A stretch of DNA of 49,303 nt, taken from the NCBI GenBank assembly GCA_902787555.1, contig CADAGO010000019.1:1-49303 (forward strand), in the 5' to 3' direction. Both the position numbers and the translations under genes were made by a program. This document shows, in pieces, positions 9,993-48,017 of the stretch (its first letter is position 1; each line of letters opens with the position of its first letter). The notes beneath the pieces were generated by a model. The model worked only from the letters and a program-made list of their open reading frames with translations. It was not told the DNA's origin and did no database searches. Origin of the DNA: an uncultured Bacteroidales bacterium (GTDB lineage Bacteria > Bacteroidota > Bacteroidia > Bacteroidales > Bacteroidaceae).

Positions 9993-10058
9993 CCCTAGTA
10001 GGGTAGCAATTGTTCCCCCTAAGGGTAACAAAAATTCCCCTTAGGGGGAACAATTGTG
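9993..10058 (+). repeat. Three-unit tandem array, 22-nt period, C/G palindromes
   Basis: Three consecutive 22-nt units start at 9993, 10015 and 10037. Each begins with a palindrome (CCCTAGTAGGG, CCCTAAGGG, CCCCTTAGGGG) and continues with an A+T-rich spacer of similar form (TAGCAATTGTT, TAACAAAAATT, GAACAATTGTG). It lies between the terminator of one gene and the promoter of the next. The period equals that of the arrays at 16390 and 47364, but the palindrome sequence is different. Confidence 0.7.
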
Positions 10059-15924: not shown

Positions 15925-15935
15925 AACCCCTTTGG

Positions 15936-16010
15936 GGTGGAGGGTGGGACTCGAACCCACGACATTCAGAACCACAATCTGACGCTCTAACCAACTGAAC
16001 TACATCCACC
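15936..16010 (-). tRNA. tRNA-His (GTG)
   Basis: The minus strand folds as a cloverleaf with an extra 5' G (G-1 opposite C73), D-stem GTTC/GAGC, anticodon stem TCAGA/TCTGA with loop TTGTGGT (anticodon GTG), and T-stem GTGGG/CCCAC. The acceptor stem has one mismatch, U6 opposite C67. CCA follows directly in the genome (positions 15933-15935). A TACCTTTG -7 box lies 29 nt upstream. Confidence 0.93.
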
Positions 16011-16046: not shown

Positions 16047-16389
16047 CGAATTATTTTTGATTCACAATAGCTAAAATGGCATTTTTTTTCATAAATCAAC
16101 AAAAATACTTCCCATTTCTATAAAAACCGCTTTTATTTAGACAATGATATAGCAGATGACAATAATTCCGCTCAATCCTCCTATTTTAGGAGAAGAACTT
16201 TTTTATGCTGTATAGAAGAATTGTAGAAATACTTCAAAAAGTAAGCTCCATCCATACTTCACGTCCTTCTTCTTTAGCGGACGGTCAATATAAAAGTTTA
16301 TGTTTAGAGTGACCATAAAGGGGTGAAGACATCTATGAGTTAGGACTATAGTTGTTAGAAGTCCATTGTCTAAACAGTACAAGGGCGGC

Positions 16390-16543
16390 CAGCCGATTCA
16401 AAAGGGAAAATCAGCCGACTCAATCGGGAAGATGAGCCGGCTGAAAAGGGAAATTGCCTAAAGGCGAACAACCGTTTGCCTAAAGGCATTTTATCATTTG
16501 GCTAAAGGCGAACGATCGTTTGCCTTTAGCCAAATTACCTTTG
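16390..16543 (-). repeat. Seven-unit tandem array, 22-nt period, two palindrome types
   Basis: 154 nt = 7 x 22. Units start at 16390, 16412, 16434, 16456, 16478, 16500 and 16522 (plus numbering). The four right-hand units open with GCCTAAAGGC or a variant (GGCTAAAGGC, GCCTTTAGCC) and then a 12-nt spacer (GAACAACCGTTT, ATTTTATCATTT, GAACGATCGTTT). The three left-hand units use another core (CAGCCGATTC, CAGCCGACTC, GAGCCGGCTG) with spacers AAAAGGGAAAAT, AATCGGGAAGAT and AAAAGGGAAATT. The phase does not change where the core type switches. A minus-strand promoter 44 nt to the right would transcribe it. Confidence 0.8.
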
Positions 16544-16586
16544 AATGTATAATAGTGGAATGGTAATAGTATGCGTAATTTCACCA

Positions 16587-16618
16587 CAAAGATACAAAAA
16601 TAATTCTCCTTTTCCAAA
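16587..16618 (-). promoter_or_regulatory. Consensus promoter reading into the 22-nt array
   Basis: On the minus strand: TTTG (16618-16615), 20 nt, TATCTTTG (16594-16587). The start would be near 16583. No protein gene lies downstream before tRNA-His, which has its own promoter; the array is the first thing transcribed. Confidence 0.7.
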
Positions 16619-16644
16619 TAATTCGTAAAGAGTTTTTGGGGTAG

Positions 16645-16691
16645 TATAAAAAATTAGGCTGAATCCCTATCATGGTTTTCAGCCTTTTTTG
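16645..16691. terminator. Bidirectional rho-independent terminator after folD
   Basis: AGGCTGAA (16656-16663) and TTCAGCCT (16678-16685) form an 8-bp stem with a 14-nt loop. T tracts follow on both strands (TTTTTT on plus; AATTTTTTAT on minus). On the minus strand it ends the dedA-ffh-folD operon. Confidence 0.88.
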
Positions 16692-16754
16692 TTACCTTTT
16701 GCTTATGATGTGAAAAGAGGACTTGTCGATTCGAAAGGAAGAATGCAACAACAG

Positions 16755-17636
16755 TTATTTATAGAATTCTTTCTTTCCTGCCGACAATGTATTCTTCATG
16801 AGTGAGCAGATGGTCATGGGACCAACGCCTCCTGGAACAGGTGTGATAAATGAACACTTGGGGGCAACATTGTCGAAGTCTACATCTCCACAAAGACGGA
16901 AGCCGCTCTTGCGAGTTGCATCAGGAACTCGGGTAGTACCCACGTCGATGATTACGGCTCCTTCTTTTACCATATCAGCAGTCACAAAGTGTGGCTGGCC
17001 AAGAGCGGCAATGATAATGTCTGCCTTCAGACATTCTTCCTTGATATTTGTTGTGTGGCTATGGCATACAGTAACTGTAGCATCTCCAGGATAGCGTTTT
17101 TGCATCATGAGTTGTGCCATAGGCTTTCCTACGATATTAGAGCGGCCTAAGATGACACAATGCTTGCCACTTGTCTCGATGTTATAGTACTTGAAGAGTT
17201 GAAGAATGCCATTCGGCGTAGCACTAATATAGCAGGGCAGACCGATTGCCATACGTCCTACGTTGATAGGGTGGAACCCATCTACGTCTTTGCGATAATC
17301 GATAGCTTCGATAATCTTCTGTTCAGAAATGTGCTTTGGCAAGGGAAGTTGTACGATAAAACCATCTACATCAGGATCGTTGTTGAGTTTTTCCACCTGA
17401 GCCAATAACTCGGCTTCTGTAACATCGTCTTCATAGCGAATCAGTGTAGAAGTGAACCCACATTGTTCGCATGAGAGTACCTTGTTGTGGACATAAGTCT
17501 CACTTCCTCCGTCATGTCCTACAAGGATGGCTGCAAGATGTGGGCGCTTGCCTCCTGCATGCAGTATTTGTTCCACTTCCTGTGCTATTTCTTGTTTGAT
17601 AGCCGTAGCTACCGCTTTTCCATCGATAAGTGTCAT
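16755..17636 (-). CDS. folD: Bifunctional methylenetetrahydrofolate dehydrogenase/cyclohydrolase
   Basis: 293 residues, normal for FolD. It interconverts 5,10-methylene-, 5,10-methenyl- and 10-formyl-tetrahydrofolate for one-carbon metabolism in the cytoplasm. Seen motifs: [20 protein letters not shown] with the catalytic tyrosine and lysine (about residues 33-52), [25 protein letters not shown], the nucleotide-binding [17 protein letters not shown], and [16 protein letters not shown] near the C-terminus. The gene starts 75 nt after ffh on the same strand and is followed by a terminator, so it is the last gene of dedA-ffh-folD. Confidence 0.96.
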
Positions 17637-37603: not shown

Positions 37604-38896
37604 TTAGTCTTGTGTGTTCATGTGAAGCATAGCTACTTCCTGCTCAGTGAGGAAGCGCCAGTCGCCTCGCTTGAGTCCCTTTTTGGTCAAGCCCGCAAAG
37701 ACTACACGGTCGAGCTTGATGACGCGATAGCCGAGAGCCTCAAAAATACGGCGAACGATACGGTTCTTTCCTGAGTGTATCTCGATGCCTATCTGTTTGC
37801 GATCGGTATCGCTTGCATAGCTGATAGCATCAGCATGTACCATTCCGTCTTCCAGTTCAACACCTTCTGCAATCTTGGCGAGGTCAGCAGCGGTACAGTT
37901 CTTGTCGAGGTACACGTGATAGATCTTCTTCTTTAAATATTTAGGATGTGTGAGTTTAGATGCCAGTTCACCATCGTTGGTAAATAAGAGTACACCTGTA
38001 GTGTTGCGGTCGAGACGGCCAACTGGATAGATGCGCTCGCGGCAACAATTCTTCACAAGATCCATCACTGTCTTGCGTGCCTGTGGGTCGTCGGAAGTAG
38101 TGACATAGTCCTTTGGTTTGTTGAGAAGTACGTATACCTTCTTTTCCAAACTTACCAGCTGATCGTGGAAGTGTACTTGGTCAGTACGCAGAATCTTGGT
38201 ACCCAGTTCGGTCACTACTTCACCGTTCACCTTAATGACACCTGCCTGGATGAAATCGTCGGCCTCGCGACGAGAGCATACACCTGCATTTGCAAGGAAC
38301 TTATTGAGACGAAGCGGAGCATTTGGGTCCTCAAGATACTCCTTATATTCAATCTGCTTCTTCAAACTATATTTTGCATTAGGATTGTAATCGGCAGAAC
38401 GCTGTCGGAACAATCCAGGACCGCCTCCACCTTGGCGCTGCTTGTTGTAGCCACCCTGTCGGTTGGCATTGTAGCCACCCTTGTTATATCCACCTTGGCC
38501 TGGTTTGTTGTAACCACCTTGACCAGCAGGACGGTTTTGGTTGTAGCCACCCTTCTGATAGCCACCCTGACCAGCAGGACGGTTTTGGTTGTAGCCACCC
38601 TTCTGATAGCCACCCTGACCGGTTGGACGGTTCTGGTTGTATCCACCACGGTTGTATCCTCCCTGACCACCAGGATGATTAAAGCTACCCTGTCCTCCAC
38701 TCGAGTGACCATAATTGTTCTGACGGACGTACCCGCTACGATGTTCACCATTACCAGAAGGTACGTCGAATCCCTGCGGACGGAATGCACGTTCTCCTGT
38801 ACTACCATTAGCGCTATAAGCACGCTCTACTCGCGTAAAACGTGGACGCTGCGGACGTTTTTCATTAGCATCTTCCTGCCATTTCTCATTCTCCAT
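37604..38896 (-). CDS. rluB: Pseudouridine synthase (RluB family) with Gly/Asn/Gln-rich N-terminal extension
   Basis: 430 residues. The enzymatic part (about 195-425) has an S4 RNA-binding domain, [21 protein letters not shown], and the catalytic motif [20 protein letters not shown] with the active aspartate, as in RluB, which modifies U2605 of 23S rRNA, or RluE/RluF. The first 190 residues are low complexity, basic and rich in Gly, Tyr, Gln and Asn, with a repeated [16 protein letters not shown] unit of 16 residues. Such extensions are common in Bacteroidetes RluB-like proteins and may help bind RNA or mediate clustering. Encoded upstream of asnS. Confidence 0.9.
38510..38660 (-). repeat. 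48-nt coding tandem repeat in rluB
   Basis: Three copies of a 48-nt unit (16 codons) with starts at 38531, 38579 and 38627 on the plus numbering; two are nearly identical and the third diverges. They encode [16 protein letters not shown]. Copy number is likely to vary by slippage between strains. Confidence 0.8.
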
Positions 38897-46688: not shown

Positions 46689-48017
46689 ATGAAACAGACA
46701 ATAGCAATATTTTTGACGATGGCCGCAATGCAGACCCTGGCACAGAACAAGTGGACCATGCAGCAGTGTATGTTGTATGCCGTGGAACATAACCACGAAG
46801 TACGGCAGGCTGAACTGGAACTTGATAACCGTATGGCAGCAAAGAAAGGAGCCGTCGGCCGATTCCTACCTGCTGTAGATGCAGGCATTGGTGCTCAATA
46901 TAACTTCGGACGTGCCATCGACCCCGAAACGAACGGCTATACAGATGTCAGTACCTTTTATAATGGCTACTCCCTGTCGGCCTCGTTGCTGGTTTTCGAC
47001 GGGTTCAGTCGTCTTTATGCGCTGAAGGCTGCCAAGGCCAGTGTGCTGATGGGACGAGCCTCACTCCGTCAGCAACAGGACCGCTCGGCTCTCAGCGTAC
47101 TGCAAGCTTTTGCCAACGTGGCTTATTATGAAGGTTTGATAAAGGTGGCCGATGAGAGGGTGAAAGAGACGGCATTGTTGCTCCAGCAGACTCGCCTGCT
47201 TGAAGAGGTGGGACGCAAGAGCGCTGCTGATGTGGCACAGGTGGAATCGCAGAAGGCAGAAGCCGACTACGAACTGATTCGTCAGCAGAACCTTTATGCC
47301 TCTGCCTTGCTCGAACTGAAGACGGAGATGGGCTATCCTTTGGAAGATAGTTTATGCCTTTTTATTCCCAGTGTGGGAACGTTTCATTCCCAGCGTGGGA
47401 ACATTTCGTTCCCAGTGTGGGAATATTCTTCGCCTTGCGAGCAGTCTTCCGAGCTGCAAGTGGCGCGCTATCAGATGCAAGCCTCGAAACATGAGTGGCA
47501 TCAGGCCCGAGCATCTCTTCTGCCTACGCTTTCGTTGAGTGCAGGTTTGAACACCACTTATTATAAGACCTTGCATTCAAAGACAGCCGCCTCGTTTGGC
47601 AGCCAGTTCAAGAACAATATGGGTGAATATGTTGGCGTATCTGTAAGTATCCCGTTGTTCAATCGCCTGCAGACCATTACAAGCATTCGACGGGCTAAGA
47701 ACAACTATCGCATCGCGCAGGAAGCTTACGACCAGAAACAGCTAGAGTTGGAAAAGCTGAGTCGTGAGGCTTGGCAAGACTGGCAGGGCTACCTGAAGCA
47801 GACCACTCAGATGGAGAAAAAGGTGGAGGCCGATAGCATTGTCTACCAGCTGACCCGCCGTCAGTTCGAAGAAGGACTCTCGACAGCCATTGACCTGCAC
47901 ACCACTTCTTTGCAACTGCTCAACTCGAAGGCTACACTCTTGCAATGCAGGTTGATGGCGATGGTAAAAGAACAATTTGTAAGATATTATAGAGGAGAAA
48001 CGATATGGACAGAGTAA
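46689..48017 (+). CDS. TolC family outer membrane efflux protein
   Basis: 442 residues with a short signal peptide (about 1-18, ending TLAQ). TolC-like proteins form the outer membrane channel of tripartite pumps. Long helices with the family pattern: WTMQQCMLYAVEHNHEVRQAELELDN at the start, QAFANVAYYEGLIKVADERV, LLEEVGRKSAADVAQVESQKAEADYELIRQQNLYASALLELKTEMGY in the first half, and SVSIPLFNRLQTITSIRRAKNNYRIAQEAYDQKQLELEKLSREAWQDWQ in the second. A 66-nt, three-unit 22-nt-period array lies in frame between the halves (about residues 226-247) and encodes a non-helical insert (PSVGTF...HSQRGNI...SFPVWEY). The next gene overlaps its end by 13 nt. Confidence 0.9.
   Translation: MKQTIAIFLTMAAMQTLAQNKWTMQQCMLYAVEHNHEVRQAELELDNRMAAKKGAVGRFLPAVDAGIGAQYNFGRAIDPETNGYTDVSTFYNGYSLSASLLVFDGFSRLYALKAAKASVLMGRASLRQQQDRSALSVLQAFANVAYYEGLIKVADERVKETALLLQQTRLLEEVGRKSAADVAQVESQKAEADYELIRQQNLYASALLELKTEMGYPLEDSLCLFIPSVGTFHSQRGNISFPVWEYSSPCEQSSELQVARYQMQASKHEWHQARASLLPTLSLSAGLNTTYYKTLHSKTAASFGSQFKNNMGEYVGVSVSIPLFNRLQTITSIRRAKNNYRIAQEAYDQKQLELEKLSREAWQDWQGYLKQTTQMEKKVEADSIVYQLTRRQFEEGLSTAIDLHTTSLQLLNSKATLLQCRLMAMVKEQFVRYYRGETIWTE
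47364..47429 (+). repeat. Three-unit 22-nt-period array inside the tolC-like gene
   Basis: Units at 47364, 47386 and 47408, each with core TTCCCAGTGTGGGAA or TTCCCAGCGTGGGAA (arms TTCCCA/TGGGAA) and a spacer CGTTTC or CATTTC. Total 66 nt = 22 codons, so the reading frame is preserved; each unit is read in a different frame, yet all are open. Confidence 0.85.

Follow-up and report, generated by a model that had tools for sequence, protein, structure and literature searches.

Tandem 22-nucleotide arrays with variable cores in Prevotella and their possible link to HU-HIG genes

Among the closest described systems are tandem operators and iterons, such as the ArgR boxes and the iterons of R6K, pPS10, and RK2. 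They consist of several units spaced about 21–22 bp from centre to centre, have palindromic or repeated cores, and often lie before the gene of the protein that binds them. The arrays described here share the spacing of about 21–22 bp, the multiple units, the palindromic or repeated cores, and often the position before the gene of a binding protein, which in this case is a candidate. Unlike in those systems, the core varies by paralogue and by genome at a constant period, the candidate binder is HU-like, and the arrays are dispersed, also in coding DNA.

Another comparison is offered by REP and BIME elements with their RAYT transposases. These too are short palindromic units that are clustered, mosaic, and dispersed. 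The present arrays differ from them in their exact 22-nt phase and in the lack of a Y1 transposase (PF01797), which has no match in the source genome G000 (82% complete) and is present in 6 of 17 genus genomes. In REP/RAYT systems, the foot of the hairpin is reported to carry a conserved tetranucleotide tag (PMC3733652). The nearest system in related bacteria is BrickBuilt, a 23-nt minisatellite MITE of Porphyromonas gingivalis. PMC4596501 reports promoter activity for BrickBuilt, mentions 22-nt repeats in strain W83, and describes a single 23-nt unit, a leader, a tail, IS5-like ends, and a location that is always intergenic. The arrays described here are likewise dispersed tandem units of similar length in the same order. 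They differ from BrickBuilt in a period of 22 or 21 nt, in differing cores, in lying inside genes too, and in having no common ends visible by eye. The literature covered, including passages of PMC5771137, gave no account of such arrays, either as a class or beside HU-HIG genes; most subscription journals lay outside this scope, making it weak evidence of absence. The link between 21- and 22-nt arrays and the upstream regions of HU-HIG genes may be new.

The DNA stretch that was analysed, here called the window, is a 49.3-kb contig (49,303 nucleotides) of G000, a genome of 2.69 Mb whose relatives are Prevotella. An array of seven units with a 22-nt period, defined by Tandem Repeats Finder (TRF) rows and by dispersed copies, occupies positions 16390–16543, between tRNA-His (15933–16009, minus strand) and folD (16755–17636, minus strand). 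The arrays and the segment around this one are given without strand. An earlier note had described the seven units as exact in period and had pointed to two further arrays of the same period, and both observations stand. Period 22 appears in four of the 26 TRF rows of the window (16390–16453, 16454–16525, 10000–10057, and 47360–47427), with 0% indels in the first two.

The array has two parts. Part one (16390–16453, from TRF and comparison of the copies) contains the units AGCCGATT, AGCCGACT, and AGCCGGCT. Part two (16454–16525, from TRF) contains GCCTAAAGGC-type units, the final one extending beyond the TRF row. Two pairs of GCCTAAAGGC cores lie 22 nt apart at 0–1 mismatch, compared with none in 100 dinucleotide shuffles. 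The note had also claimed that the type of palindrome switches midway. The two-part layout with its core switch does recur in dispersed copies, and thus is not peculiar to the window site. The palindromes themselves fare less well, since only the third of the three AGCCGGCT-like units is palindromic by itself. Instead, units 2 and 3 form the arms of a single hairpin, CAGCCGACTC-12 nt-GAGTCGGCTG, in many other genomic copies (by eye), while units 6 and 7 are mutually reverse complementary and make one near-perfect 32-nt palindrome.

The second array of the window (9993–10057, TRF) has CCCTTAGGGG-type cores at the same 22-nt period. It is kept in the relative G004 and missing from G007. The third (47360–47427, TRF), also of period 22, is built on TTCCCAnnnTGGGAA and lies within a tolC/OEP gene (46689–48017), which encodes a tolC-like outer-membrane efflux protein. 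Pairs of TTCCCAnnnTGGGAA cores occur on six contigs of G000 (at most 3 mismatches). The window also contains a 48-nt tandem repeat of 3.4 copies in open frames at 38514–38675.

The genus and rumen Prevotella commonly carry tandem arrays of near-exact 22-nt period and differing cores, many of them palindromic, and the window array belongs to this class. When about 1.1 Mb of relatives was scanned for runs of three units with spacing P (12–60 nt), 31 arrays had a period of 22, five of 21, and three of 15, while none had a period of 19, 20, 23, or 24. The expected excess of 22-nt runs in relatives is thus present. Stretches from the genus gave period-22 arrays in four of five genomes and none at 19, 20, or 23. 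G000 had 15 in 434 kb, from contigs known by a TTCCCA search, with L113, L119, and the window's two counted arrays known beforehand and L111 looking low-complexity. There were five in 120 kb of G004 and six in 100 kb of G007, both partly orthologous to the window, with one G004 array counted in both scans (as L013 among the relatives and as L130 in the genus stretches). G009 had nine in 100 kb, and G010 none in 80 kb. In 800 kb from other genera of the family there were seven, including one or more of low complexity, along with two arrays at 23. Other members of the phylum gave a single low-complexity one in 400 kb.

Exact 12-mer pairs at 22, 44, and 66 nt repeat this distribution: the genus has 20, 16, and 5, the family 12, 6, and 5, the tolC loci 17, 8, and 4, and the phylum sample 1, 0, and 0, with at most 7 at every other period from 13 to 69. 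By a crude call of open reading frames, 42 of 62 arrays are intergenic, some of them in divergent regions, and 20 lie in open frames; 14 of these 20 are in tolC, which was itself the query. Symmetry exceeds the 99th percentile of background in 36 of the 62, so not all arrays are palindromic. In some, the cores agree and the spacers differ.

The cores vary widely in their distribution. Pairs of TTCCCAnnnTGGGAA cores are found in 10 of 12 Prevotella genomes, compared with none for a reversed-pattern control, while pairs of AGTTTGGACGGAGCAAACT occur in the genome of L100 only, where 6 contigs carry 10 of them. Whatever the genome or the type of core, spacing is kept far better than sequence, as had been proposed from the window alone.

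The genes beside the arrays suggest a partner. Among the neighbours of 12 long or compact array sites, of which 20 of 23 were scanned, there was no replication initiator gene. Genes for HU-HIG proteins, which are HU-like, follow three of the longest arrays at distances of 36, 46, and 246 nt, and many arrays precede genes whose products match HU-HIG (Pfam PF18291). HU-HIG genes were then picked independently of arrays: 70 of 112 PF18291 matches from 17 genus genomes and 69 of 96 from seven more, 139 in total. The matches omitted were frames of plain-HU length, genes lying at the end of a contig, and, by choice from the table, a few others; in controls, the profile also matches plain HU. The start of each gene was set at the nearest in-frame ATG, or else at another start codon or the first codon of the domain. 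Upstream regions at contig ends were shorter than 600 nt.

Three different measures were used, namely strict counts, the best period on 600 nt, and the best period on 300 nt. By the strict count, three-unit arrays within 600 nt upstream of the 70 genus genes were found 18 times at 22 and 13 times at 21, with 23, 26, and 34 once each. For HU-HIG genes of at least 150 amino acids with a full 600 nt, a 21- or 22-nt array was present in 23 of 48, while the controls had one in 22 of 197 (Fisher 8e-8, overstated since the HU-HIG genes are related). The control genes were required to have 150 nt or more of intergenic DNA and included a few HU-HIG genes. Period 21 alone gives 12/48 compared with 3/197, and period 22 alone 12/48 compared with 20/197 (p 0.009, likewise overstated); one HU-HIG gene has an array at 23. 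By best period on 300 nt, 32 was as frequent as 22 in the controls, with 20 each. The enrichment is weaker in the seven further genomes, where the best period on 600 nt was 21 or 22 for 28 of 69 genes, compared with 50 of the 70 genus genes. Under the strict criterion, arrays of 21 and 22 nt are both lacking in 102 of all 139 genes.

The HU-HIG arrays are more palindromic than chance, with at least 7 of 8 pairs formed in 18 of 63 units compared with 2.5% of shuffles. In the 14 genes with a 21-nt array, it lies 12–17 nt after TAnnTTTG in nine and 36–43 nt after it in three; the other two do not follow this motif.

The period tracks the class of HU-HIG protein. In one clade of 27 genes, the best period on 300 nt was 21 or 22 in 26 (19 at 21 and 7 at 22), compared with 1 of 14 in the sister clade, 48 of 98 other HU-HIG genes, and 39 of 197 controls. 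Fourteen members of this clade, aligned because they had arrays, appear to carry a winged-helix-like C-terminal part, recognised from the alignment with no Pfam match. Twelve aligned genes selected for 22-nt arrays have a Gly-rich or short tail in its place. Length gives a similar division among the 139 genes. Proteins of 200–225 amino acids had 13 arrays at 21, 2 at 22, 1 with both, and 25 with none, while other lengths had 0 at 21, 21 at 22, and 77 with none (Fisher 5e-8 for length class against period, also overstated). Both the clade and the length test were chosen after the labels had been seen.

Of seven relatives examined later, six fit this relationship and one does not. Upstream arrays of 21 nt were found in Bacteroides finegoldii (L481, a 211-aa protein), Phocaeicola massiliensis, and Parabacteroides distasonis (L481–L483), which were found by protein similarity alone; the start of L482 was guessed. 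Three HU-HIG relatives on viral contigs are all at 22, two of them being alike, with upstream regions 87% identical. Their core, ATGATGCGCATCA or ATCATGCGCATGA, differs from ATCATACGTATGA in G000 in its inner pairs, which have changed on both sides. The exception is a plasmid gene of B. finegoldii (L504) with no array in the 300 nt upstream; a 21-nt period farther up belongs to coding repeats of the preceding gene. In nine other genera, 20 upstream regions (of 114 matches) had a best period of 22 in nine cases, 21 in one, 37 in three, and others once.

The Phages collection had no match to one HU-HIG protein, and viral scans with another and with alignment A1 gave none. No PDB sequence matched the two HU-HIG proteins tried. 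An AlphaFold model of the viral protein, built from three sequences, had a mean pLDDT of 42, too poor for use.

Some cores are shared between HU-HIG promoters and arrays elsewhere. For the ATTACGG core, 7 of 17 genomes together hold 15 places, with no control matches; four of the 15 are HU-HIG promoters and two are in tolC. HU-HIG array cores recur as pairs elsewhere in the DNA covered of their own genome for 5 of 24 queries, some taken at a relaxed threshold, compared with at most 6 of 231 across genomes, the self-match L343/L105 having been dropped. The second array of the window may have a counterpart as well. Two CCCYWARGGG cores lie 22 nt apart upstream of a HU-HIG gene of G000 (L375) and pairs lie likewise at two genes of G012 (L363 and L370). 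In the window, the corresponding CCCTTAGGGG-like cores are 22 nt apart at 10016–10047.

Four big dispersed cores are not shared in this way. No pair of GCCTAAAGGC-type, TTCCCAnnnTGGGAA, AGTTTG-7-CAAACT, or TGAATCGATTCA cores at 21 or 22 nt is present in the upstream regions of the 139 HU-HIG genes, six of which come from G000 (from nine PF18291 matches in this 82% complete genome). The largest dispersed families, the window's included, are therefore without a known partner. The idea that HU-HIG genes stand beside TTCCCA, AGTTTG, and window-type arrays was also dropped, as a profile search of 81 array loci found them only beside ATTACGG arrays. Arrays are also present in coding DNA and at a distance from HU-HIG genes.

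The best explanation is that the arrays are putative binding sites of HU-HIG proteins, with a core of its own for each paralogue and a 21/22-bp ruler set by the geometry of the protein. Its probability is put at about 0.5. This value was lowered, and that of mobile repeats raised, because the big dispersed cores are absent from all 139 upstream regions. In this model, a dimeric, HU-like HU-HIG protein would occupy one core per unit. Adjacent bound dimers would lie two turns apart on the same face of the helix, which would fix the period at 22 bp, or at 21 bp for proteins with the winged-helix-like C-terminal part. The core would be free to vary among paralogues. In the simplest form, an array at the promoter of a HU-HIG gene would be an autoregulatory operator. 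Arrays elsewhere would be additional sites of the same proteins, partly spread on dispersed repeats like that of the window, and the GCCTAAAGGC arrays would presumably have a HU-HIG partner of their own. Among the interpretations in the earlier note, the HU-HIG genes thus lend evidence to a single protein site in every 22 bp. The arrays are dispersed and replaced, but this does not require the copying process with rewritten cores that the note had considered.

HU proteins are non-specific DNA benders. If the HU-HIG reading is true, a large family of HU-like proteins, with regularly spaced sites of their own, would form a specific regulatory or genome-defence layer in a main group of gut bacteria. 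It would also account for a widespread kind of repeat that the literature covered does not describe, and would provide a handle on the role of HU-HIG expansions, as protein and site could be paired by computer. The dispersed arrays may regulate their neighbours, titrate HU-HIG proteins, or be silenced by them. A bolder and rather doubtful version proposes a code of private HU proteins. Each of the many HU-HIG paralogues of a genome would have its own palindromic word at 21 or 22 bp and would co-evolve with families of dispersed arrays, much like zinc-finger repressors with transposons, each new family being met or spread by a matching paralogue, so that the ruler rather than the sequence is conserved.

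Another model, tentative but the best placed of the rivals, is that the arrays are non-autonomous mobile repeats of a REP/BIME- or MITE-like kind. A trans-acting transposase would copy the palindromic units, 22 nt would be the footprint of the enzyme, and HU-HIG promoters would be frequent landing places. The dispersal of the window array fits this model. The stretch 16370–16560 has 23 long copies in G000, the window copy included, and additional short pieces. Among the 17 genus genomes searched, G004 has one long and two short matches, G013 has one short match, and 14 others have none. In an alignment of the 23 G000 copies with one from G004, the array is exactly 142 nt long in 20 of 24, and these 20 have a mean pairwise identity of 82% (minimum 63%). 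The copies are mosaic: the second half comes in two versions and the spacers differ, while the phase is the same. Their flanks are of several unrelated kinds, one being itself a different 22-nt array. Beside several copies (L165, L163, L150, and others), on the downstream side, is a small element with TATTGGTGTCCGCTAAAAGTTG-like ends that is reminiscent of a MITE.

Gain and loss at orthologous sites, for which the earlier note had proposed comparing intergenic regions, also favour mobile repeats. In G007, G016, and G006, compared by eye, the spacer between tRNA-His and folD is short and lacks an array-bearing segment of 615 nt (16140–16754). TTATTTA is present at both borders of the segment (16133–16139 and 16755–16761), which makes it a possible insertion with a 7-bp target duplication. 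G004 and G009 carry different 22-nt arrays beyond tRNA-His, on its far side. In G004, the tRNA-His gene is followed by incomplete copies of its own 3' end (L130, 10203–10672), as if repeatedly inserted.

The restriction of the AGTTTGGACGGAGCAAACT core to one genome, the big dispersed cores without a HU-HIG partner, and the tolC linker can be read in the same way. In 22 of 81 tolC alleles, the strongest period of the linker is 22 (autocorrelation of at least 0.40, periods 12–39 nt), and inspection by eye distinguishes about eight kinds of core; the loci were gathered with the array-bearing gene as query and placed on a quick tree, and L026 and L027 are identical in tolC and L058 and L102 nearly so. 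The alleles L063 and L098 have flanks 95–100% identical (the last stretch 90%) and different 22-nt arrays. Blocks of array have thus been swapped, by recombination or possibly by mis-assembly of the metagenome. The linker (window 47330–47450; L025–L104) is a hot spot in general, with GTGAAGA 7-nt inverted repeats, CCCCTCTCC inverted repeats, 22-nt arrays, and block replacement between near-identical alleles.

Mobile repeats nevertheless leave unexplained why the period follows the HU-HIG class and why 26 of 27 genes in one clade have a best period of 21 or 22. Shared ends of a common element were not seen by eye in the copy alignment, and the Y1 or REP-associated transposase is absent from G000 as sequenced.

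A further explanation, which is improbable, is that the arrays function at the RNA level, each as a series of small hairpins serving as leader, terminator, or stability element. A-form helices have about 11 bp per turn, so that 22 nt would again be two turns. A motif TTTG-N18..22-TAnnTTTG, directed into the array, lies upstream of 20 of the 24 copies, the other four being without it. In the window it reads TTTG-N20-TATCTTTG (16587–16618, minus strand, motif match), which we take to be promoter-like from the Bacteroidetes promoter consensus. Paired changes on both sides of some arms also agree with hairpins. However, both strands fold similarly, arrays lie in divergent and coding regions, not every array is palindromic, and a role as hairpins would leave the distance from unit to unit unfixed. 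The RNA mini-hairpins proposed in the earlier note are not supported, as no strand preference is seen.

Slightly less credible is a neutral process of replication, in which slippage and hairpin-templated correction make 22 nt a mutational ruler. Arrays in the permissive tolC linker, beside several unrelated kinds of repeat, and arrays with agreeing cores and differing spacers would be expected from it. Yet the spread of arrays among HU-HIG promoters depends on the clade of the protein, and a neutral process is disfavoured because it should be blind to the class of a protein encoded downstream.

The remaining candidates can be rejected briefly as the main explanation: simple tandem duplication, since units differ while the phase is exact; RAYT/REP, for want of a transposase in G000 (82% complete); a known RNA family, as Rfam at gathering threshold finds two tRNAs and a small SRP RNA in the window and nothing at the array; intrinsic terminators, since arrays are found in coding and divergent regions and not just 3' of genes; and strand-specific RNA hairpins, since folding has no strand preference.

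Two other loci show unusual arrangements. In L133 (16570–16781), two unlike 22-nt arrays share the promoter region from which a DUF4301 gene and a RelA/SpoT gene diverge, and one of the cores is common to a HU-HIG promoter (L362). L268 carries, from position 1, a long array of ACGTCCAAGGT and its variants with an 11-nt period, half the usual ruler.
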